A stretch of DNA of 64,000 nucleotides from NCBI RefSeq assembly GCF_022524485.1, contig NZ_JAKXMK010000016.1, forward strand, positions 186,001 through 250,000. The letters are read 5' to 3'. The notes beneath the pieces were generated by a model, which did no database searches, had not been told where the DNA came from, and saw only the letters and a list, made by a program, of their open reading frames with translations. Source of the stretch: Pseudonocardia alaniniphila (lineage in GTDB: Bacteria > Actinomycetota > Actinomycetes > Mycobacteriales > Pseudonocardiaceae). Positions 15,378-61,649 of the stretch are shown here, one piece after another; positions within the stretch are counted from its first letter, which is position 1; every line of letters begins with the position of its first letter. The position numbers and the translations under genes were made by a program.

Positions 15378-16415
15378 ATGCGAGAATTCACCTACAACGC
15401 ACTTCCTGCACGAATCGTGTTCGGCTCCGGGGCGGCGCGCACCCGGCTCGCGCCCGAGATCGAGCGGTTGGGGGCCCGGCGGGTGCTGCTCGTGGCCTCG
15501 GATCGCGACACGGCCCGGGTGCGGGAGCTCGTCGCCCCTGTCGCCGAGCGGGTGGCCGCAGTGTTCACCGCGGTGCGCGAGCACGTGCCGCTGGCCACGG
15601 CCGAGGCCGCCCGCGCCGCCGCGGCCGAGGTCGATGCGGACGTCGTGCTGTGCATCGGTGGTGGGTCGACCACCGGGGCTGCAAAGGCTGTCGCGCTCAC
15701 GGCTCGGATTCCGGTGGTTGCCGTGCCGACGACGTATTCGGGTTCGGAGGTCACGCCGGTGTGGGGTCTGACGGTGGATGGTCGCAAGACCACGGGCGTG
15801 GATCCGGTCGTGTTGCCTCGGGTGGTCGTGTACGACCCGGAGTTGACGGCGTCGCTGCCGCGGGAGTTGGCCGTCGCGAGTGGCTTCAATGCGCTGGCGC
15901 ACGGGGTCGAGGCGTTCTGGGCGAGCGGGCGCAACCCGGTGAGCACGGCGGTCGCCGAGGACGGGATCGCTGCCATTGTGGCTGGTCTGCGGAAGGATGA
16001 TCCTGTTTCGCTGCTGCGTGATGCGTGGTTGACGGCGAGCGCTTTTGCCGCTGCTGGTTCGGGGTTGCATCACAAGCTGTGTCACGTGCTGGGCGGCACG
16101 TATGACCTGCCGCATGCGCGCACTCACGCCGTGGTGTTGCCGCATGTTTTGGCGTTCAACGCGCCCGGGGCTCCCGATGCGGTGGCGCGGGTCGCGCGGG
16201 CGTTGGGTGTCGATGATCCGGTTCGTGGGTTGCGGGAGCTGGCTGACGAGATGGGCGTGCCCCGCGGGCTGCGTGAGCTGGGTTTGAATGAGGAGCAGAT
16301 CGACGAGGTCGCGGCGTTCACCGAGCCCGTGGTACCGGAGGACAACCCCGTGCCTGCCGACGCCGGCGCGTTGCGGCGATTGGTGCGCGCCGCGTGGGGA
16401 GGCGAGTGGAACTGA
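15378..16415 (+). CDS. Maleylacetate reductase (cassette 1)
   Basis: 345 residues, iron-type alcohol dehydrogenase superfamily. The nucleotide-binding [11 protein letters not shown] lies near residues 98-108 and [14 protein letters not shown] follows. The metal/active-site histidines are in [24 protein letters not shown]. It reduces maleylacetate to 3-oxoadipate with NAD(P)H, the step after hydroxyquinol ring cleavage. It is closely similar to the reductase at 26277-27314 and has the same length. Residues 98-175 are almost identical in the two copies, while the first 90 residues differ more. This copy uses more T-ending codons than its neighbours. Confidence 0.9.
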   Translation: MREFTYNALPARIVFGSGAARTRLAPEIERLGARRVLLVASDRDTARVRELVAPVAERVAAVFTAVREHVPLATAEAARAAAAEVDADVVLCIGGGSTTGAAKAVALTARIPVVAVPTTYSGSEVTPVWGLTVDGRKTTGVDPVVLPRVVVYDPELTASLPRELAVASGFNALAHGVEAFWASGRNPVSTAVAEDGIAAIVAGLRKDDPVSLLRDAWLTASAFAAAGSGLHHKLCHVLGGTYDLPHARTHAVVLPHVLAFNAPGAPDAVARVARALGVDDPVRGLRELADEMGVPRGLRELGLNEEQIDEVAAFTEPVVPEDNPVPADAGALRRLVRAAWGGEWN

Positions 16416-16418
16416 GAT

Positions 16419-16468
16419 CGGCAGCGACGGGGAACGGCAGCGACGGGGAACGGCACTGACAAGGGGAA
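16419..16468 (+). repeat. Short tandem repeat between the reductase and monooxygenase genes of cassette 1
   Basis: The 16-bp unit CGGCAGCGACGGGGAA occurs exactly twice (16419-16434 and 16435-16450) and is followed by a degenerate third copy to about 16468. In cassette 2 the dioxygenase gene fills this place, so the repeat may mark a deletion junction. Confidence 0.75.
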
Positions 16469-16515
16469 TGGCAGTGGAGAACAGGCTCGACATCGCGCTG
16501 GGGTCGCTCTCGTGA
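16468..16515 (+). CDS. Possible 15-residue leader peptide coupled to the monooxygenase
   Basis: ATG to TGA encodes MAVENRLDIALGSLS. A purine-rich AAGGGG precedes the ATG. The TGA overlaps the GTG start of the monooxygenase (GTGA, 16512-16515), which would allow translational coupling. It could equally be a remnant or chance. There is no similarity to the dioxygenase that occupies this position in cassette 2. Confidence 0.35.
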   Translation: MAVENRLDIALGSLS

Positions 16516-18263
16516 CCGCGGATCTTCAGACGGACGTGCTGGTGATCGGCAGCGGCCCGGCGGGTGGCGGGGCGGCACTCGCCCTGGCCACGCTGGGCGT
16601 CGATCACACGGTGATCACCAAGTACCGCTGGACGGCCAACACGCCGCGGGCGCACATCACCAACCAGCGCACGATGGAGATCTTCCGCGATCTCGGCATC
16701 GAGGACGACGTGCTTGCCCAGAGCACCGCACACGAACTGCTCGGGGACACGGTGTTCTGCACCAGCCTCGCGGGCGACGAGATCGGACGGGTCCGCACCT
16801 GGTACACGAGCCCGGCACGCGAGTCCGACTACAGGCTGGCGAGCCCCTCACCCAACTGCGACATCCCGCAGACCTACCTCGAGCCGATCGTCATCGGTCA
16901 CGCCGCATCGAGGGGAAGCCGGGTCCGATTCGATACCGAGTTCGTCGGTCTCGTGCAGGACGCCGACGGGGCCACCGTCACGGTGAGGGACCGGCTCAGC
17001 GGTCACGAGTACGACATCCGCGCGAAGTACGTGATCGGCGCCGACGGCGGACGCAGCGCCGTGGCCGCCGATGTCGGGCTCCCGTTCGAGGGCAGGATGG
17101 ACCTCGCCGGCTCGATGAACATCGTGTTCCACGCCGACCTCTCGCAGTACGTGGCCCACCGGCCCAGCGTCCTGTACTGGGTGCTGCAGCCCGGCGCGGA
17201 GGTCGGTGGCATCGGCATGGGTGTCATCCGCATGGTCCGGCCGTGGAACGAGTGGCTGATCGTCTGGGGTTACGACATCACCCAGCCGCCGCCTGAGGTC
17301 GACGACGAGATGGCGATCAAGATCGTTCATGAGCTGGTGGGCGACGACTCGATCCCGGTGACGATCCGCTCGACGTCCCTGTGGGGCAACAACAAGATGT
17401 ACGCCACCCGCTATCGGGCCGGGCGGGTGTTCTGCATGGGCGATGCGGTGCACCGGCATCCGCCGTCGAACGGGCTGGGCTCGAACACCTCGATCCACGA
17501 CGCCTACAACCTGGCGTGGAAGCTCGCCTACGTGCTGCGCGGGAGCGCCGGTGAGGCGCTGCTCGACAGCTACGACGCCGAGCGGGTGCCGGTGGGAAAG
17601 CAGATCGTGCTGCGGGCGAACAAGAGCATCGAGGAGTTCGGCCCGATCTTCGACGCACTCGGGCTGATCGGCGAGAGCGACCCGGAGGTGATGCGCCGGC
17701 ACATCGCGGCGCGCGGGGCCAACACTCCGGAGGCCGCGGTCCAGCGCACGAAGCTGCGCGCGGCGCTGGAGCTCAAGAACTACGAGTTCAACACCCACGG
17801 CGTGGAGATGGGGCAGCGGTACGCCTCGGCGGCCGTGGTGCAGGACGGCACCCCGGAGCCGGAGTACACGCGCGACCCCGAGCTCCATTACCACCCCACC
17901 ACCTGGCCGGGGGCGCGTCTGCCCCACGTCTGGCTCGGGCGCGACGGGCGCCGCGTCTCCACTCTCGATCTCGCCGGCAAGGGCCGGTTCTGCCTGCTCA
18001 CCGGCATCGCGGGCGAGGAGTGGGCCGGTGCGGCCGCGAAGGCGTCCGAGGAGCTCGGTGTGGAGATCGCCGCGCACGTGATCGGGCCCGGCCGGGAGTA
18101 CATCGATCTGTACGACGACTGGGCGCGGGTGCGAGAGGTGGAGGAGGACGGGTGCGTGCTCGTCCGGCCCGATGCCTACGTCGCGTGGCGCTCGGCAGGC
18201 CTCGCGGAGGATCCGGCGGCGGAGCTGCACCAGGTGCTGTGCGCGGTGCTGGCCCGCGGCTGA
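16512..18263 (+). CDS. FAD-dependent phenol-type monooxygenase, TfdB-like (cassette 1)
   Basis: 583 residues, class A flavoprotein hydroxylase. The FAD-binding GSGPAGGG lies at about residues 14-21, the DG motif in [16 protein letters not shown] (about 176), and the GD motif in [22 protein letters not shown] (about 305). A thioredoxin-like C-terminal domain follows. Length and motifs fit the 2,4-dichlorophenol 6-monooxygenase/phenol hydroxylase group. With maleylacetate reductase, hydroxylation of resorcinol or a similar phenol to hydroxyquinol is the likely role. It is close to the protein at 28171-29922, with equal length. No dioxygenase lies in this cassette. Confidence 0.9.
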   Translation: MTADLQTDVLVIGSGPAGGGAALALATLGVDHTVITKYRWTANTPRAHITNQRTMEIFRDLGIEDDVLAQSTAHELLGDTVFCTSLAGDEIGRVRTWYTSPARESDYRLASPSPNCDIPQTYLEPIVIGHAASRGSRVRFDTEFVGLVQDADGATVTVRDRLSGHEYDIRAKYVIGADGGRSAVAADVGLPFEGRMDLAGSMNIVFHADLSQYVAHRPSVLYWVLQPGAEVGGIGMGVIRMVRPWNEWLIVWGYDITQPPPEVDDEMAIKIVHELVGDDSIPVTIRSTSLWGNNKMYATRYRAGRVFCMGDAVHRHPPSNGLGSNTSIHDAYNLAWKLAYVLRGSAGEALLDSYDAERVPVGKQIVLRANKSIEEFGPIFDALGLIGESDPEVMRRHIAARGANTPEAAVQRTKLRAALELKNYEFNTHGVEMGQRYASAAVVQDGTPEPEYTRDPELHYHPTTWPGARLPHVWLGRDGRRVSTLDLAGKGRFCLLTGIAGEEWAGAAAKASEELGVEIAAHVIGPGREYIDLYDDWARVREVEEDGCVLVRPDAYVAWRSAGLAEDPAAELHQVLCAVLARG

Positions 18264-26276: not shown

Positions 26277-27314
26277 GTGCGGGAGTTCACCTACGAGGCG
26301 CACCCCGCGCGGATCGTCTTCGGGACCGGCGCGGCGCGCACCCGGCTCGCCGACGAGGTCGGCCGGCTCGGCACCACCCGGCTGCTGCTCGTGGCCTCGG
26401 ATCGCGACGCGGAGCGCGTCCGCTCGCTCGTCGCGCCGCTGCGCGATCGCATCGCTGCGACGTTCACCGCGGTGCGCGAGCACGTGCCGCTCGCCACTGC
26501 CGAGGCCGCACGGGCATCGGCCGCCGCCGTGAACGCCGACGGCGTGCTGAGCGTGGGCGGTGGGTCGACCACCGGGGCTGCGAAGGCCGTGGCGCTCACG
26601 GCCCGGATCCCGGTGGTTGCTGTGCCGACGACGTATTCGGGTTCGGAAGTCACGCCGGTCTGGGGTCTGACGGTGGAGGGTCGCAAGACCACGGGGGTCG
26701 ATCCGGTCGTGTTGCCCCGGGTGGTCGTCTACGACCCGGAGCTGACGGCGTCGCTGCCGCGGGGGTTGGCGGTCGCGAGTGGTTTCAACGCGCTGGCTCA
26801 CGGAGTCGAGGCGTTCTGGGCGCCGCGGCGCAATCCCGTGAGTGCCGCCATCGCCGAGGACGGGATCGCCGCGATCGTGGTCGGCCTGCGCAAGGACGAT
26901 CCTGTCGCGCTGCTGCGCGGTGCCTGGCTGACGGCCAGCGCGTTCGCCGCCGCCGGTTCGGGGTTGCACCACAAGCTGTGTCATGTGCTTGGTGGCACCT
27001 ACGACCTGCCGCATGCGCGCACTCATGCCGTGGTGCTGCCGCACGTGCTCGCGTTCAACGCACCGGGCGCCCCCGATGCGATGGCGCGGGTCGCGCGAGC
27101 GCTGGGCGTCGGCGATCCCGTTCGTGAGCTGCGGGAGCTGGCTGACGAGATGGGCGTGCCTCGGGGCCTGCGTGAGCTGGGTTTGCGTGAGGGGCAGATC
27201 GACGAGGTCGCGGCGCTCACCGAGCCTGCGGTACCGGAGGACAACCCCGTGCCGGTCGGTGGCGGGGCACTGCGGCGGCTTGTGCGCGCCGCGTGGAGTG
27301 GGGAGGACACGTGA
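26277..27314 (+). CDS. Maleylacetate reductase (cassette 2)
   Basis: 345 residues from a GTG preceded by GGGAGG, giving [20 protein letters not shown]. It has the same motifs as the copy at 15378: [25 protein letters not shown] and the [22 protein letters not shown] histidine segment. It converts maleylacetate, formed by the dioxygenase encoded next, to 3-oxoadipate. The stop overlaps the dioxygenase GTG by 4 bases (GTGA). The whole downstream operon is tightly coupled. Confidence 0.92.
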
Positions 27315-28174
27315 CCCAGCAGGAGCGGGAGGAGGCGGTGACCGATGAGGTCGTCGCCAGCTTCGCCGGGACGAAGGACGAGCGGCTCCGCGAGATCGTG
27401 CAGAGCCTCACGCGGCACCTGCATGCGTTCGCGCGGGATGTCCGGCTGACGCAGGAGGAGTGGGAAGCGGGGATCGGCTTCCTGACCCGCGTCGGGCACA
27501 CGACCGATGACAAGCGGCAGGAGTTCATCCTGCTCTCCGACGTGCTCGGGCTCTCGATGCTCACCGTCGGGATCAACGCCCCCGCCTCGCCGGGGGCCAC
27601 CGAGTCGACGGTGTTCGGGCCGTTCTTCGTGGAGGGCGCTCCTGAGGTGCCGATCGGCGGCGACATCGCCCGCGGCGCGAAGGGCACCCCGTGCCGGGTG
27701 ACCGGCAGCGTCCGCTCGACGGACGGGTCGCCGCTAGCCGGGGCCCGGATCGAGGTGTGGGAAGCCGACGAGGACGGCTTCTACGACGTGCAGTACGACG
27801 GCGACCGGTCGGCCGGGCGCGGATGGCTGCGCTCGGGGGCGGACGGGGAGTACGCGTTCTGGTCGGTGCGCCCGTCGCCCTACCCGATCCCCGACGACGG
27901 CCCGGTGGGCGACCTGCTCGCCGCCACCGGCCGCGGCCCGATGCGTCCGGCACACCTGCACTTCAAGGTCGACGCGCCCGGCCACCGCACCCTGATCACG
28001 CACGTCTTCGCGGCGGGCGACCCCTATCTCGAGCACGACGCGGTGTTCGGCGTCAAGGAGAGCCTGGTCGTCGACTTCGCCGAGCACCCGGCAGGCGCTG
28101 CCCCCGACGGGCGGGTCCTCGACACCGCCTGGACCAGCCTGAACTTCGACATCGTCCTGGAGGCGAGGCCATGA
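27311..28174 (+). CDS. Hydroxyquinol 1,2-dioxygenase (intradiol ring-cleavage dioxygenase)
   Basis: 287 residues. The N-terminal helical dimerisation domain ([22 protein letters not shown]...) is followed by [10 protein letters not shown]. The iron(III) ligands are Tyr158 (GFYDVQYDG), Tyr191 ([11 protein letters not shown]), His215 and His217 (RPAHLHFKV). Their spacing matches hydroxyquinol dioxygenases. It cleaves 1,2,4-trihydroxybenzene between the two ortho hydroxyls to maleylacetate, the substrate of the preceding gene. It overlaps both neighbours by 4 bases. This gene is absent from cassette 1. Confidence 0.92.
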
Positions 28175-29922
28175 GCGAGACCCTGCAGACCGATGTCCTG
28201 GTGATCGGCAGCGGCCCGGCGGGTGGCGGGGCCGCGCTGGCCCTGGCCACGCTGGGCGTCGATCACATGGTCGTCACCAAGTACCGCTGGACGGCCAACA
28301 CGCCGCGGGCGCACATCACCAACCAGCGCACGATGGAGATCTTCCGGGATCTCGGCATCGAGGACGATGTACTGGCGCAGGGAACACCGCACGACCTGAT
28401 GGGCGACACGGTGTTCTGCACCAGCCTCGCCGGGGACGAGATCGGGCGGGTCCGCACCTGGGGTACGCACCCGGCGCGGGAGGCCGACTACACGCTGGCC
28501 AGCCCGTCGCCGAACTGCGACATTCCACAGACCTTCCTCGAGCCGATCGTGATCGGCCACGCCGCTTCCCGCGGCAGCAGCATCCGGTTCGACACCGAGT
28601 ACCTGCGGCTCGTGCAGGACGACGAGGGCGTCACCGTGACGGTGCGGGATCGCGTGACCGGAAGCGAGTACGACATCCGCGCCAAGTACGTGATCGGCGC
28701 CGACGGCGGGCGCAGCGCCGTGGCCGCCGACGTGGGGCTGCCGTTCGAGGGCCAGATGGACGTGGCCGGCTCGATGAACATCGTGTTCCACGCCGACCTG
28801 TCGCACCTGGTCGAGCACCGGCCGAGCGTCCTGTACTGGGTGCTGCAGCCCGGTGCGGAGGTCGGTGGCATCGGGCTGGGCCTCGTGCGGATGGTGCGGC
28901 CGTGGAACGAGTGGCTGATCGTCTGGGGCTACGACATCACCCAGCCGCCGCCCGAGGTCGACGACGAGATGGCCACCCGGATCGCGCACGAGCTGATCGG
29001 CGACGACTCGATCCCGGTGACGATCCGCTCGGTCTCGTTGTGGGGCAACAACAAGATGTACGCCACGCGGTACCGGGCGGGGCGGGTGTTCTGCATGGGG
29101 GATGCCGTGCACCGGCATCCGCCGTCGAACGGGCTGGGCTCGAACACCTCGATCCAGGACGCCTACAACCTGGCGTGGAAGCTCGCCTACGTGCTGCGCG
29201 GGAGCGCCGGTGAAGCACTGCTCGACAGCTACGACGTGGAGCGGGCGCCGGTGGGCGAGCAGATCGTGCTGCGGGCGAACAAGAGCATCGAGGAGTTCGG
29301 CCCGATCTTCGACGCACTCGGGCTGACCGGGGAGTCGGATCCGGAGTTGATGCGCCGGCACATCGACGCGCGGGCGGCGAACACCCCGGAGGCGGCCCGG
29401 CAGCGGGCAGATCTGCGGGAAGCGCTTGAGCTCAAGAACTACGAGTTCAACGCGCACGGTGTGGAGCTGGGTCAGCGGTACGTGTCCGGTGCGGTGGCGT
29501 CCGACGGCACCACGGAGCCGGAGTACACCCGCGACCGCGAGCTGTACTACCACCCGACCACCTGGCCGGGCGCGCGGTTGCCGCACGCGTGGCTGGGCCG
29601 CGACGGGCGCCGGGTCTCCACCCACGACCTGGCCGGGAAGGGCCGGTTCTGCCTGCTCACCGGCATCGCGGGCGAGGAGTGGGCCGACGCGGCGGCGAAG
29701 GTCGCCACCGAGCTCGGCGTCGAGGTGGTCGCGCACGTGATCGGACCGGGCCGGGAGTACATCGACCTCTACGACGACTGGGCGCGGGCCCGCGAGGTCG
29801 GCGAGGACGGCTGCGTGCTGGTCCGCCCGGACACCCACGTGGCCTGGCGCGCGGCCGCGCTGGCAGACGACCCAGCGGCAGACCTGCGCAGAGCCCTGAC
29901 GACAGTGCTGGCCCGCCCCTAG
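28171..29922 (+). CDS. FAD-dependent phenol-type monooxygenase, TfdB-like (cassette 2)
   Basis: 583 residues, with an ATGA overlap to the dioxygenase. FAD motifs are as in the paralogue: [22 protein letters not shown] and [17 protein letters not shown]. Active-site-region segments such as [24 protein letters not shown] are identical in both copies. It probably forms hydroxyquinol from resorcinol or a related phenol. The two copies differ mostly at scattered positions (for example STAHELLG versus GTPHDLMG near residue 73), so they may have different substrate ranges. Confidence 0.92.
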
Positions 29923-55414: not shown

Positions 55415-55654
55415 GATCGTCCCTTCTGTCGGCCGTACCGTACGACGCCCCGGCGGCTGCGCCAGATCCACCCGAATGCGGCGGGAAGTCGCCGCCGAGG
55501 AACGCGTTGCTCGATGCCCGCGCTGCTGCGTCCGGCACACCGGGTGACGGTCCGCATATTCGGTCCGGCCACCCGAAGCGGGAGTCGTCAATCCTGCGGA
55601 GTCCTGGTTACAGTGCCCACTGACCTGCGAAAACGGGCGGTCGAGGAGGGTTCA

Positions 55655-56464
55655 ATGACTGGAGCCGCGTCCCTGGCGGAGCTGCTGATGTCGCGCTCGT
55701 TGAGCGACCCGGAGCTACAGCGGGCGACCGAGGCTGTCGAGGATCACGCCATCCTGCCCGACGTCAGCGTGCTCAAGATCGGTGGCCAGAGCCTCATCGA
55801 CCGGGGACGTGCCGCGGTGTTCCCGGTCGTCGACCAACTCGTGGCCGCCAAGCGGACCCACAAGATGTTGATCGGCACCGGCGGTGGCACGCGGGCCCGG
55901 CACGTCTACGCACTGGCCGCGGAGCTGGGCATGCCGACCGGCGTGCTGAGCGAGGTCGGAGCCGCGGTCGCCGGCCAGAACGCGCACATGCTCGGCTACC
56001 TGATGGCGAAACACGGCGTGCCGACGGTCGGACCGTCGGCGTTCGGCGTGCTCGCGCTGCAGATGGCGGAGTCAGGAGCGGTGATCTTCTCGGGCATGCC
56101 GCCCTACGACCTGTGGCAGCGGGTGCCGGGTGAGGGCGTGATCCCGCCCTACCGGACCGACGCCGGCTGTTATCTGGTGGCGCAGACCTACGGCTGCAAA
56201 CAGATGATTTTCGTCAAGGACGAGGACGGGCTCTACAGCGCCAACCCCAAGAACGACGGATCCGCCAAGTTCATCCCGAGAGCCACGGTCGACGAGCTGA
56301 TCGAGATGGACCTCCCCGACCTGGTCATCGAGCGTCCGGTGCTGGAGCTGATGCGACACGCCCGGCACGTGCGCGAGGTCCAGATCGTCAACGGCCTGCG
56401 GCCCGAGCTGGTCCGCCGCGCGCTCGACGGAGAGCACGTCGGTTCGATCATCACCGCCGCATGA
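55655..56464 (+). CDS. mosB: Molybdenum storage protein, beta-subunit-like (MosB)
   Basis: 269 residues of the amino acid kinase (UMP kinase-like) fold. By memory of the Azotobacter vinelandii protein, long stretches correspond closely: [55 protein letters not shown] and [19 protein letters not shown] followed by [18 protein letters not shown]. It ends [11 protein letters not shown]...[10 protein letters not shown]. The beta subunit forms, with MosA, an (alpha-beta)3 cage that packs polyoxomolybdate or -tungstate clusters in an ATP-dependent way. ATG is preceded by GAGGAGGG. Overlaps mosA by 4 bases. Confidence 0.88.
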
Positions 56465-57291
56465 CGCCCACGGAGCACCCCATGACCAAGCCAGGCGCCA
56501 CGTCGGCCGAGTCGGTCGCGGCCAAGGACGTCCCCTCGCTGTTGATGCGCCAGACCCTGCTGGACCGCGAGCTGGTGCGGCCGGTCGACCGGCCGGTGAT
56601 CCGCGTGCTGCCGTGGTTGCGGGTGGTGGCCATCGGCGGCACCACGATCATGGACAGGGGTCGCGATGCCGTGATCCCGCTCGTGGGGGAGCTGCGAGCC
56701 GCACTCGCCGAGCACCGGATGCTGATCCTGACGGGCGCCGGGGTCCGGGCGCGGCACATCCTCGGCGTGGGTCTGGACCTCGGCATGCCCACCGGCGTAC
56801 TCGGTGGCCTGGCAGCCACCGAGGCCGAGCAGAACGCGCACCTGCTCGCTGCCCTCCTGGCCGCCGATGGTGTCTCCTACCTGCCGCATGGCACGGTCGC
56901 CAACCAGCTGGCCACCCACCTGTCGGCGAGCCGGGCCGTGGTGGCCAACGGCTACCCGCCCTACGGGGTGCACGAGTTCCCGCCTGCGGTGGGCAAGATC
57001 CCGCCGCACCGCAGCGACGCGGGTGCGTTCCTGCTGGCCGACGCCTACGGAGCCGCGCAGCTCGTCTACGTCAAGGATGCGGACGGGGCTCCCGACGGCG
57101 GCACGAGAGTCGCGGTCAGCGAGCTACTCGGCCGAGACCGAGCGGAACTGCCCGTCGATCCGCTCGTGCTGGAGCTGATGACGCGCGCCAAGCACGTGCG
57201 GGAGATCCAGGTCGTCAACGGGCTCGTTCCCGGGAACCTGACGCTCGCGCTCGCCGGCAAGAACGTCGGGACGGTCATCCACGCTGACTGA
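56461..57291 (+). CDS. mosA: Molybdenum storage protein, alpha-subunit-like (MosA)
   Basis: 276 residues; ATG at 56461 overlaps the mosB stop, with an ATG at 56482 as an alternative. Alpha-subunit-type segments: [78 protein letters not shown] and [25 protein letters not shown]. Where Azotobacter MosA has a longer Asp/Gly nucleotide loop, this protein has the short [15 protein letters not shown], about ten residues less by my recollection. Ends [30 protein letters not shown]. No nif or moco genes are in the window. Its last 17 bases overlap the convergent membrane gene. Confidence 0.87.
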
Positions 57292-58808: not shown

Positions 58809-59528
58809 TCACACCTTAGCCTCCACGAACTGCTTCCCACCCGTGTTCTGGACGACCACACCGGCCACGTCCTCGGGGGCGATCAACGCCGACCCGTCGA
58901 GCGTGGTTCCGCCGGTGGAGCCCTGCTCCGAGACCAGCCAGCCGCCCGCCGTCTCGCGGGTACCGTCCTTGGCCACCACCACGAGCTGGCAACGTTGCCC
59001 CGCGGGAATGCCGGTGACCGCCGCGCTGACGCGAACCCAGCCGGCCGCAGGCACGATGGCAGCGGTCACCCGGGCACCTGTGGACGGATCGGTCGCGCTC
59101 GCGTAGCGGGTGCCGGGGGTGGCAGGCGCGGCCGTCGTGGAGCCAGGAGCCGGACCTGCGGCGATGTTCTGCCCGTTCTCACTCAGAGTCACCCGGCCGA
59201 CGAGAACGCCCCCGACGAGCGCTACGGCCGCCACCGCCGCGGCGGCCGCGGCGGCGAGGTATCGGCGCCGGCCCTCGACTTGAGAGGACTCTGCTCTCAC
59301 CTGCCGCAGCGTTCGTTGCAGGAGTAGGTCCGCGTCCTCAGGTGGGCCGTCCAACAGCACCTCGGGGGGTACGTCTGCCAGCAGCTGCTGGAGCTCGCGA
59401 AGCACGTCGACCTCCTCCCTGCATTCGGAACAGGTGCCGAGGTGTTCCTCGACGACCTTCTTCTCCTCCGGGTCCAGTTCGTCCGCGACGTAGGAATCGA
59501 TGTCTGCATGGTCACGTGCCGCGCTCAT
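58809..59528 (-). CDS. Anti-sigma factor, RskA type with zinc-finger N-terminus
   Basis: 239 residues. The zinc anti-sigma motif HLGTCSECREEV (His29, Cys33, Cys36) lies in the N-terminal sigma-binding domain. One membrane helix, RYLAAAAAAAVAAVALVGGVLVGRV, follows near residue 90. The outer domain is the RskA C-terminal domain (ATDPSTGARVTAAIVPAAGWVRVSAAVTGIPAGQRCQLVVVAKDGTRETAG). It sequesters the sigma factor encoded just upstream until regulated proteolysis. The ATG shares one base with the sigma stop (TGATG). Confidence 0.92.
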   Translation of the reverse strand: MSAARDHADIDSYVADELDPEEKKVVEEHLGTCSECREEVDVLRELQQLLADVPPEVLLDGPPEDADLLLQRTLRQVRAESSQVEGRRRYLAAAAAAAVAAVALVGGVLVGRVTLSENGQNIAAGPAPGSTTAAPATPGTRYASATDPSTGARVTAAIVPAAGWVRVSAAVTGIPAGQRCQLVVVAKDGTRETAGGWLVSEQGSTGGTTLDGSALIAPEDVAGVVVQNTGGKQFVEAKV

Positions 59529-60067
59529 CAGGCAGCTCCTTCCATCCCTACCCGCCGTTCGGGAAACATCTGGCGCAATGCCCGCAGCGCGTAGTGCGAC
59601 CGGGACTTCACGGTGCCGGGCGGGATACCTAGCTCCTTGGCGGTTTCATCGACCGACCGCCCCTGCAGGTAGACCTGCTCGAGCACCTCACGATGTTCGG
59701 CGGACAGACGGCCCAGCACATCGAGCACAACCATGGTGTCGACCACACGGTCGGCGTGATCTCGCTCGACCGGGACGTTGGTCGGCGACTCCGGCACTTC
59801 GGCGGGTCGTGCGTTTCGGGCTCGGATCCGGTCGGTGACGATGTTGCGGACCACGGTGAGCAGCCAGCCGCGTACCGAACCTTTCCCGTTCACGAGGGAG
59901 TCCGGATGTCGCCACGCTCTCACGAGTGCCTCCTGGACGACGTCCTCAGCGGCGGCGCGGTCACTGGTCAGCCTCGTCGCGTAGGCAAGCATCGCTTTTC
60001 CGTGCTCCTCGAAGAGGGAACGCACGAGGGCTTCGTCGGCACCACCTGGCCGACGTGTCGTTCTCAT
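59528..60067 (-). CDS. ECF RNA polymerase sigma factor (SigK/SigL-like)
   Basis: 179 residues from MRTTRRPGGADEALVRSLFEEHGKAMLAYATRL. Region 2 includes DRAAAEDVVQEALVRAWRHPDSLVNGKGSVRGWLLTVVRNIVTDRIRARNARP. Region 4 is VVLDVLGRLSAEHREVLEQVYLQGRSVDETAKELGIPPGTVKSRSHYALRALR. Gene pairing with a zinc, membrane-bound RskA-type anti-sigma factor places it in the SigK/SigL-like group. Its regulon is unknown; the nearby secreted lipoprotein gene at 60888 is a candidate target. Start could also be an upstream GTG (VVGMRTT). Confidence 0.9.
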   Translation of the reverse strand: MRTTRRPGGADEALVRSLFEEHGKAMLAYATRLTSDRAAAEDVVQEALVRAWRHPDSLVNGKGSVRGWLLTVVRNIVTDRIRARNARPAEVPESPTNVPVERDHADRVVDTMVVLDVLGRLSAEHREVLEQVYLQGRSVDETAKELGIPPGTVKSRSHYALRALRQMFPERRVGMEGAA

Positions 60068-60887
60068 CCCGACCACGCACGTTTCCCTTTCCCCGCGCCC
60101 CACGACGTGGGAGCTCCGCCGGCCACGCCGGCGGTAACCACGACGTATCCCCGTAGGCACAGGCGCCCTGGCTGTTCGACGAGGTTCGGGCCCGGGTGGG
60201 CGGTACACACCGCTACAGCCGCCCTCGCGGGCGGTGGGTCGGCACCGAATGCCGACTGCGGCGTGAACACCGTCATCTACCGAAACCCTCACCTTCGACA
60301 ACCTGAGCCGGGAGCGCCGGCCACCCAGGACACGTCGCTGGGGTCGGTGAGGTTCACTGGATCTTCGCGAAATTGTCGGCGGCTTTCTCGTCGTACTGCC
60401 TGGCGGAGCAGAACGCCCCCGACCACCGCCGGAGCGGCGATGTGCCGTACGGCGGCAACGGCGTCGGGAGAACTGGCAGGACATGACCACCTCGCTTGTG
60501 CGGCGACGAGCTTCCGATCGACTTCCGCACACCACACGGCTCGTTCGGAGCGCGGGTTCAGGACTGGATGATCTGACCCACGTTCTCCTGACCAAAGGGC
60601 GTGCTCGTTCTGGCTGCCGCAACCCGGCGGGGGAGGACGGACCGCTGGTCGCGTGATCGGCGGTGCGGTTCGACCTGCTTGTCGCGCTTGCGGTGCAGTC
60701 AGCATCGCTGCCGGTGGAGCGGGTTCGCCACGGAGCCTGCCCCTGGAGTGCGCGGGAGGGTCCGGGTCTTTGCCGCCGCGTGGCGTGGGATGGATCACTA
60801 GTCGAACCACCTGGGCTTCGGTTCCGTGTGCTAGCGCGTACGGGTCGGAGCGACCGGCCCGCAAACCTCCCCGGAGAGAAGATCCTC
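60068..60887. other. 820-bp divergent intergenic region without a convincing gene
   Basis: This lies between the ECF sigma gene (minus) and the lipoprotein gene (plus). Reading frames here have low-complexity, Arg/Pro-rich products and no start with a clear ribosome-binding site. It must hold both promoters. A short stretch around 60350-60600 on the minus strand (VRHIAAPAVVGGVLLRQAV) could be a gene remnant, but I cannot support it. Confidence 0.5.
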
Positions 60888-61649
60888 ATGGCGCTCCGCT
60901 CCCTCGCCCGCCAGGCCGTCATCGTTGCGGCCGGCCTCGCCGCTCTCGCCGCGTGCGGCACCCCGGCGCCCCCGCTTCAGGCCGCTGCTCCGCCCGCGGC
61001 GGTCGCGCCGGCCCCGTCGGCCGAGCAGCAGGCGCCTGCCGACGGGTCGCAGTTCGGTCAGGTCATCGCGACCGAGGCGCCCCAGGTGGTGCGCACCCAG
61101 GGCAAGGTCGACATCTACGGTGGGGCCTCCACGACGCAGATCACGCTGTCCCCTGACCACGCCTCGAACAAGATCCAGCTGCAGGCGGTGGTCAACGCCC
61201 AGATCGGCACGTACGTCAGCGACAACGACGGCATGACGCTGTACCGCTTCGACAAGGACACCGCGAAGCCGTCGAAGTCCAACTGCCAGGGCGACTGTGC
61301 GGTGACCTGGCCGCCGCTGCTGGTCAAGTCCCCCGGGCAGATCTACAACGTCGGAGTCGACGCGTCCACGGTCGGCTACGTCGAGCGCCCCGACGGCACC
61401 TGCCAGGTGACGATCGCCGGGTGGCCGGTGTACTACTTCTCGAAGGACCAGCAGCCCGGCGACATCAAGGGCCAGGGCGTCGGCAACACGTGGTTCGCGA
61501 TCAACCCGAAGGGCGGCAAGACCGGCGCCGTGCAGCAGTCCTCGCAGCAGTCCTCGCAGGAGTCCAACGGGGGACCCCAGCCCGCGCCGGCCTCCGGAAA
61601 CGACCAGTCGGGGAACGGTCAGGGGTCCGGCGGTAGCTCCGGCTACTGA
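60888..61649 (+). CDS. Secreted lipoprotein with COG4315-type repeats
   Basis: 253 residues. Signal peptide ending in LAAC with Cys23. A Pro/Ala-rich linker follows. Residues about 90-210 hold the two-repeat COG4315 domain: YVSDNDGMTLYRFDKDTAKPSKSNCQGDCAVTWPPLLV and GYVERPDGTCQVTIAGWPVYYFSKDQQPGDIKGQGVGNTWFAI. The C-terminus is Gln/Ser/Gly/Asn-rich. Paired Cys suggests disulphides outside the cell. Such lipoproteins often accompany ECF sigma/anti-sigma genes, and this one is divergent from such a pair. Function unknown. Confidence 0.85.
   Translation: MALRSLARQAVIVAAGLAALAACGTPAPPLQAAAPPAAVAPAPSAEQQAPADGSQFGQVIATEAPQVVRTQGKVDIYGGASTTQITLSPDHASNKIQLQAVVNAQIGTYVSDNDGMTLYRFDKDTAKPSKSNCQGDCAVTWPPLLVKSPGQIYNVGVDASTVGYVERPDGTCQVTIAGWPVYYFSKDQQPGDIKGQGVGNTWFAINPKGGKTGAVQQSSQQSSQESNGGPQPAPASGNDQSGNGQGSGGSSGY

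Follow-up and report, generated by a model that had tools for sequence, protein, structure and literature searches.

The molybdenum storage protein (MoSto) builds polyoxometalate clusters and is usually described as the store of nitrogen fixers. We take its beta subunit to be the ATP-hydrolysing pump, with Met149 as the gate; Lys42 of the Azotobacter vinelandii (Av) beta subunit presumably belongs to the nucleotide pocket, and the N-terminal arm of the alpha subunit presumably covers the ATP bound to beta. In A. vinelandii MoSto, octamolybdate is bound covalently by alpha His156 and Glu129 (PMC4504029; PMC8154434), and three alpha His140 residues hold a W3 cluster on the three-fold axis of the tungsten-loaded structure (PMC8154434). 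One legend of PMC8154434 names GluA126, but its text and PMC4504029 give Glu129, and 129 is used throughout. A 2019 study stated that protein databases contain no known homologue of MoSto (PMC6448029), and mosAB have been counted among nitrogen-fixation metal genes (PMC12903952) and as KEGG K00947 in a survey of soil and roots (PMC13188454). In the open-licence literature, as far as titles and abstract openings tell, we found no description of an actinobacterial MoSto.

Here, we report the analysis of a mosB–mosA pair in a 64,000-nucleotide stretch of the Pseudonocardia alaniniphila genome (9.37 Mb in 115 contigs, with a listed contamination of 7.29%); this whole stretch is referred to as the window. 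Sequence comparison confirms the genes as a true MoSto pair, belonging to a branch that lacks nitrogenase and in which the metal sites of alpha are consistently changed. We consider it probable that they encode a MoSto-type, ATP-driven store of molybdenum or tungsten for molybdopterin enzymes in a host without nitrogenase, in which beta would do the pumping and the cluster inventory would differ from that of Azotobacter. The features of the pair are as follows.

55643..55650, + strand: Shine-Dalgarno-like GAGGAGGG before mosB (read from the sequence; presumed function)
55655..56464, + strand: mosB, 269 aa; MoSto beta-type subunit, predicted ATP-driven molybdate/tungstate pump
56461..57291, + strand: mosA, 276 aa; MoSto alpha-type variant lacking both the octamolybdate ligands and a Lys45 equivalent
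56461..56464, + strand: four-base overlap (ATGA) of mosB and mosA (read from the sequence)

An earlier, sequence-only reading had described mosB and mosA as adjacent and overlapping by four bases, and both frames are open at exactly these coordinates; the ATGA overlap likely couples their translation. No Rfam element scored above the gathering score in the window. In a phmmer search of the sequences of solved structures, the mosB product matched A. vinelandii MoSto beta (2ogx_B and others) with an E value of 6.6e-112 and 63% identity, and the mosA product matched MoSto alpha with an E value of 2e-84 and 60–62% identity to the A. vinelandii protein. The best non-MoSto match of beta in this search was a uridylate kinase (E 2.5e-8), and alpha had no non-MoSto match at E ≤ 0.001. 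The two proteins match only the amino acid kinase family (PF00696) in Pfam, and the pair consists of two homologous subunits of this fold encoded in tandem.

The pair is not an isolated case, and beta also occurs in other Actinomycetota. Of the 62 genomes of the genus, 25 have a beta match at E < 1e-120, its own included, and 27 have one at E 1e-30, the extra two having weaker matches only. It is rare in wider samples, with 4/397 genomes of the order and 5/396 of the phylum, each count again including its own genome. A scan of named genomes with two peptide patterns, which passes over relatives with other letters in these peptides and is not a taxonomic census, retained 80 loci out of 118 relatives; 78 of these are labelled Pseudomonadota, one is from Actinomycetospora and one is from a Chloroflexota metagenome-assembled genome (MAG; L027). 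Beta is followed by alpha in tandem in all 80.

Nitrogenase was sought with PF00148 (nitrogenase component 1 family), a search that was positive in 4/14 controls. It gave no match in the P. alaniniphila genome or in three MoSto-bearing relatives, and 0/62 genomes of the genus exceeded the cut-off, the single sub-threshold match being in a MoSto-free genome. Four other actinobacterial genomes with MoSto-like genes gave none either (0/4). Since the genome has no match and the genus none over the cut-off, nitrogenase is ruled out as the client. For the named genomes, 50 loci were chosen from the 80 and 49 genomes were searched, of which 40 lay above the cut-off, each with a best E value of 3e-119 or better. 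The nine others are the genomes of Actinomycetospora endophytica (L001) and L027, neither of which gave a match, and seven proteobacterial genomes, five again with nothing and two with sub-threshold matches. Nitrogenase thus exceeds the cut-off in 40/47 proteobacterial MoSto genomes searched versus 0/25 beta-bearing genomes of the genus (Fisher p 2e-13, for sets that are not random samples and with relatedness ignored).

The sequence-only reading had also found no nif, mod or moco genes in the window. For nif and mod, this agrees with the absence of PF00148 from the genome, of ModA, ModB, ModC and HTH-TOBE from the window (tblastn, E 1e-8), and of ModA and PF02738 matches from the same contig. 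Elsewhere in the genome, where that reading had proposed to look, nif is likewise missing (no PF00148), and modABC and MoaA are present. A single contig (C36) carries ModA, ModB and MoaA above their cut-offs, a ModC-like ATPase below its cut-off and an HTH-TOBE homologue found by tblastn. PF02738 is matched 20 to 21 times, depending on the E cut-off, with two of the 21 in one frame, and these matches are about 20 predicted molybdenum-hydroxylase genes. The large subunit of aerobic CO dehydrogenase scores 1076.5 bits against a cut-off of 991.15 and carries the motif AYRCSFR, and ModA lies above its cut-off in 62/62 genomes of the genus. From modABC, MoaA and the many PF02738 matches, it follows that the host takes up molybdate, makes the cofactor and has a high demand for molybdenum. 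The storage role, which had been left undecided among several clients, is narrowed in this way: nitrogenase drops out, and molybdate uptake, MoaA and molybdenum hydroxylases are on hand. Within the genus, PF02738 counts average 14.0 in genomes with beta (n = 25) and 14.6 in those without (n = 35; two alpha-only genomes left out; p 0.52), so that the demand of molybdenum hydroxylases is no predictor of MoSto.

The gene neighbourhood of the pair itself is uninformative on metals: the neighbours scanned in the window include genes for an alpha/beta hydrolase, a methyltransferase, a sigma factor and zinc-finger proteins, and mos does not lie beside mod genes in this genome. An ECF-type sigma factor gene is immediately followed by a zinc-finger (anti-sigma-like) gene at 58809–60025, with a secreted-repeat lipoprotein gene nearby at 60828–61649. 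Separately, the window contains a duplicated two-gene unit (15417–18263 and 26277–29922) whose proteins are 87% and 86% identical; we take these to be maleylacetate-reductase-like and FAD-monooxygenase-like, with a dioxygenase-like gene (27293–28174) inside the second copy, and the unit looks like a resorcinol/hydroxyquinol-type breakdown cluster.

In relatives, the neighbourhood is more telling. In one genome of the same genus (G449), whose beta is 82% identical to that of the window, mosBA lies tail to tail with genes for HTH-TOBE, modA, modB, modC and a 189-aa protein, and ModA and ModB score above their cut-offs. The C36 cluster of P. alaniniphila has the same HTH-TOBE and modABC genes and the same neighbour, presumably acyl-CoA-dehydrogenase-like, and contains no mos. 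Among the genus loci searched, several of which end at contig ends, a mod operon adjoins mos only in G449; in G429, an HTH-TOBE gene lies about 2–3 kb from mos. ModC-like ATPases near mos in L102, L104, L107, L108, L109, L113, L115 and L116 match the ModC queries at about 35–39% and were not counted as molybdate transporters. Outside the family, molybdenum or tungsten uptake genes occur within about 6 kb in 4/4 of the actinobacterial loci found.

L131, near mos: modABC, HTH-TOBE, a second ModA and a WtpA-like gene
L132, near mos: HTH-TOBE, a ModBC-like fusion and a WtpA-like gene
L133 (genome G662): HTH-TOBE and modABC beside a divergent MoSto-like pair
L134 (genome G751): TupA-like, TupB-like and ABC ATPase genes beside a single MoSto-like gene

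This transporter neighbourhood is the strongest non-chemical sign that the actinobacterial branch handles molybdenum or tungsten. The ModA proteins encoded next to mos in G449, G551 and G662 score above the molybdate-family cut-off. The WtpA-, TupA- and TupB-like genes fall below curated cut-offs and some neighbours were identified only by mutual similarity, so those transporters may prefer either molybdate or tungstate.

Three observations on these loci may be added. The single MoSto-like gene of G751 (L134:830–1660) is 42% identical to the window beta and is the only match of its genome at E 1e-30; with tup-like genes at L134:1888–4562, it is a possible one-subunit tungsten store. The divergent pair of G662 (L133:3162–4873), both members of which are nearer to beta than to alpha, may represent an early stage of the alpha/beta split. 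The 189-aa protein of G449 (L126:4551–5120), encoded between modABC and mosAB, is a putative lipoprotein without a Pfam match; tblastn relatives occur right after mos in L027 (L027:11684–12004) and, in L011, about 7 kb away from mos (L011:9008–9541), and the protein is possibly an extra part of molybdenum uptake or storage.

The same neighbourhoods bear on a different role, in which the cage would trap tungstate or excess oxyanion, sequestering tungstate (or molybdate) and thereby shielding molybdenum enzymes rather than feeding them. Lack of MoSto makes A. vinelandii more sensitive to tungsten (PMC6448029), and the His140 retained in alpha is the W3 ligand of the tungsten-loaded structure (PMC8154434). 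The TupA- and TupB-like genes beside the G751 homologue and the WtpA-like genes near mos in L131 and L132 would also fit, although all score below the tungstate-family cut-offs, whereas the ModA proteins of G449, G551 and G662 exceed the molybdate-family cut-off. An uptake operon placed beside a store favours acquisition over detoxification. Both roles may coexist, but a trap as the main function seems to us unlikely, and a store that supplies molybdopterin enzymes is the preferred reading.

The residues of the two subunits were compared across 78 proteobacterial and 30 actinobacterial loci, the latter giving 31 alpha rows because one locus is split in two; G411, near-identical to G410 in the genus search matches, was left out of the counts. 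The positions of interest in the window, all assigned by alignment, are listed below.

55775..55777, + strand: beta codon 41, Lys, equivalent to Av Lys42 (nucleotide pocket); conserved
56096..56098, + strand: beta codon 148, Met, equivalent to Av Met149 (proposed gate); conserved
56629..56631, + strand: alpha codon 57, Ala at the site of Av Lys45
56884..56886, + strand: alpha codon 142, Pro at the site of Av Glu129 (covalent octamolybdate ligand)
56917..56919, + strand: alpha codon 153, His, equivalent to Av His140 (W3 ligand on the three-fold axis); conserved
56965..56970, + strand: alpha codons 169–170, Gly-Val at the site of Av His156-His157 (His156 is a covalent octamolybdate ligand)

Beta Lys42, Met149, Lys189 and Glu191 are kept in 78/78 proteobacterial and 28/29 actinobacterial rows, including that of the window; the only row without them is the broken beta of L110. 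Judged by its title, PDB entry 6ris is a Kb42S variant of MoSto. Alpha presents a different picture. Glu129 is kept in 75/78 proteobacterial alphas versus 0/30 actinobacterial loci, and His156 in 76/78 versus 0/29 readable loci. His157 is present in 78/78 proteobacterial alphas and in none of the actinobacterial rows, while Lys45, which aligns with beta Lys42, is present in 78/78 and, among actinobacterial rows, only in L119. By contrast, His140 is retained in 78/78 proteobacterial and 29/30 actinobacterial loci (Phe in L119). The alpha N-terminal arm (RQTLLDR region) is well conserved, and many rows, that of the window included, have a shorter segment behind the DG motif. The sequence-only reading had stated that both subunits match those of Azotobacter in many motifs and had proposed a comparison with the structural residues: the statement holds for beta Lys42, Met149, Lys189 and Glu191 and for alpha His140, and it fails for alpha Glu129, His156, His157 and Lys45.

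The loss of the octamolybdate anchors and of the alpha lysine is a new finding, common to the actinobacterial loci read. Alpha probably no longer binds ATP normally and is probably unable to hold covalent octamolybdate; Glu129 and His156 are taken here as a trait of the Azotobacter-type (proteobacterial) branch, not of the whole MoSto family. A simple tie between the loss of the anchors and the loss of nitrogenase was considered and found no support, as such genomes can keep them: Glu129 and His156 are present in 7/7 proteobacterial loci whose genomes fall below the nitrogenase cut-off, and also in L027, which has no nitrogenase match.

The same changes could have reduced storage itself, and, taken further, the proteins could be a degenerate or repurposed MoSto, i.e. 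an ATP-dependent oxyanion-binding complex (a sensor, chaperone or carrier) that makes no polyoxometalate clusters. Besides an alpha without Glu129, His156, His157 and Lys45 and with a loop after the DG motif that is shortened in many rows, this explanation draws on two genomes of the genus that keep only alpha or remnants. G414 has a truncated beta with alpha (L110:5441–6831), and G419 has an alpha-type remnant and no beta (L111:5986–6663); these suggest that loss is under way in the genus, and the pair is therefore dispensable. However, the two branches have 73 conserved alpha positions in common, including His140 (with one actinobacterial fragment counted as proteobacterial), the beta residues are fully conserved in intact genes, and both genes are present in 23/25 of the beta-bearing genomes of the genus. 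Of the other two, G422 has an alpha that continues beyond the end of its contig, and in G429 alpha is divided between two frames. We regard degeneration as quite unlikely, and retain the view of a working store with altered clusters.

The relationship of the subunits was analysed in a maximum-likelihood tree of 76 author-chosen rows, in which the bootstrap is unsettled and long branches are flagged; all alpha rows form one clade (100/100), all beta rows form another (97/99), and seven members of the amino acid kinase family encoded elsewhere in the P. alaniniphila genome separate from the MoSto rows at 88/97. The window genes group with relatives L089 and L090 in both clades. G267, from another genus of the same family, pairs with A. 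endophytica at 100/97 in the alpha tree; Actinomycetospora is also a member of the Pseudonocardiaceae. L119 branches first among the alphas and the proteobacterial alphas are nested among the actinobacterial ones (99/95), so that the octamolybdate anchors would be a proteobacterial gain. No nesting of proteobacterial within actinobacterial rows occurs in the beta tree, and among three deep relatives, one carries a His where Av has His156. We put forward a gain of the anchors in Proteobacteria as a hypothesis, and the change may have run in either direction.

An AlphaFold2 model was obtained for the alpha monomer only, using 23 aligned sequences (mean pLDDT 76, with residues 167–173 and 177–181, and hence the loop with codon 169, below 50). 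Its 15 best PDB matches are all MoSto chains, with MoSto alpha on top (first E 5.8e-28), and UMP kinases come next, from E 2.4e-9. Against UMP-kinase family models, beta scores 56.8 and 24.6 bits (cut-offs 158.05 and 243.9) and alpha 30.7 bits (cut-off 158.05), and the genome has seven further PF00696 matches outside the pair. The idea that the two proteins are common nucleotide or amino-acid kinases that share this fold and were wrongly taken for MoSto, which could appeal to PF00696 as the only Pfam match of both and to the annotation of the homologue as uridine (monophosphate) kinase in 8/10 Azospirillum plasmid records, is scarcely credible and is rejected on the family scores far under the cut-offs, the seven other PF00696 matches, and the tree and fold search. 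A placement with uridylate or other kinases, which would have spoken against the earlier identification as a MoSto-like pair, was looked for, and sequence, tree and fold all lead to MoSto instead. Given the kinase labels of the Azospirillum records, such stores may often be overlooked.

On this basis, we propose how the store for molybdopterin enzymes would work. Beta would bind ATP and molybdate and drive the metal into a cage, presumably an (alpha beta)3 assembly, and alpha would act as the cage partner that closes both the cage and the beta site. Molybdate or tungstate would be kept there as oxide clusters. With the octamolybdate anchors absent and probably no nucleotide on alpha, these clusters should differ from those of Azotobacter; they would be fewer or of other kinds, possibly trinuclear clusters anchored by His140 on the three-fold axis together with loosely bound, non-covalent ones. 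Aerobic CO dehydrogenase and about 20 related molybdenum hydroxylases would draw on the store as a molybdate buffer, and protection from tungstate would be a side effect or, on the rival view, the main role.

A broader proposal is tentative, and we give it rather less than an even chance. It holds that Actinobacteria contain a MoSto branch of their own that does not depend on nitrogenase, with beta as its sole ATP-driven pump and alpha as a pseudo-kinase partner in the cage; that the branch makes other metal-oxide clusters and no covalent octamolybdate, is coupled to mod-, wtp- or tup-type uptake and feeds molybdopterin enzymes such as CO dehydrogenase; that Proteobacteria added the anchors later, along with nitrogen fixation; and that the single-gene relatives beside tungstate transporters are simpler versions of this store. 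A branch free of both nitrogenase and anchors offers natural variants by which the residues for pumping can be separated from those that set the cluster type, and could show whether bulk molybdenum storage serves enzymes other than nitrogenase.

Among known systems, the archaeal type of UMP kinase (PyrH) shares the amino acid kinase fold with the pair, but differs from it in an identity of only about 20% in fold alignments, in sub-cut-off scores and in a separate position in the tree. The Tub and Mop stores resemble the proposed role in that molybdenum or tungsten is held for non-nitrogenase enzymes, but they are built from the TOBE domain rather than the kinase fold; Eubacterium limosum Tub holds eight tungstate ions per hexamer (PMC11980592). 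The closest system is MosA/MosB of A. vinelandii, with which the window pair shares two homologous subunits at 63% and 60–62% identity, the beta-then-alpha gene order, the nucleotide-pocket and gate residues of beta, and alpha His140. Unlike the A. vinelandii protein, the window alpha lacks Glu129, His156, His157 and Lys45 and has lost some of the loop behind the DG motif, its host has no nitrogenase, and several actinobacterial relatives have adjoining molybdenum or tungsten transporter genes. The H156A variant of A. vinelandii MoSto (PDB 6h6w, judged by its title) removes one octamolybdate ligand; the actinobacterial alpha is its natural counterpart and differs from it in that Glu129 and His157 are changed as well.
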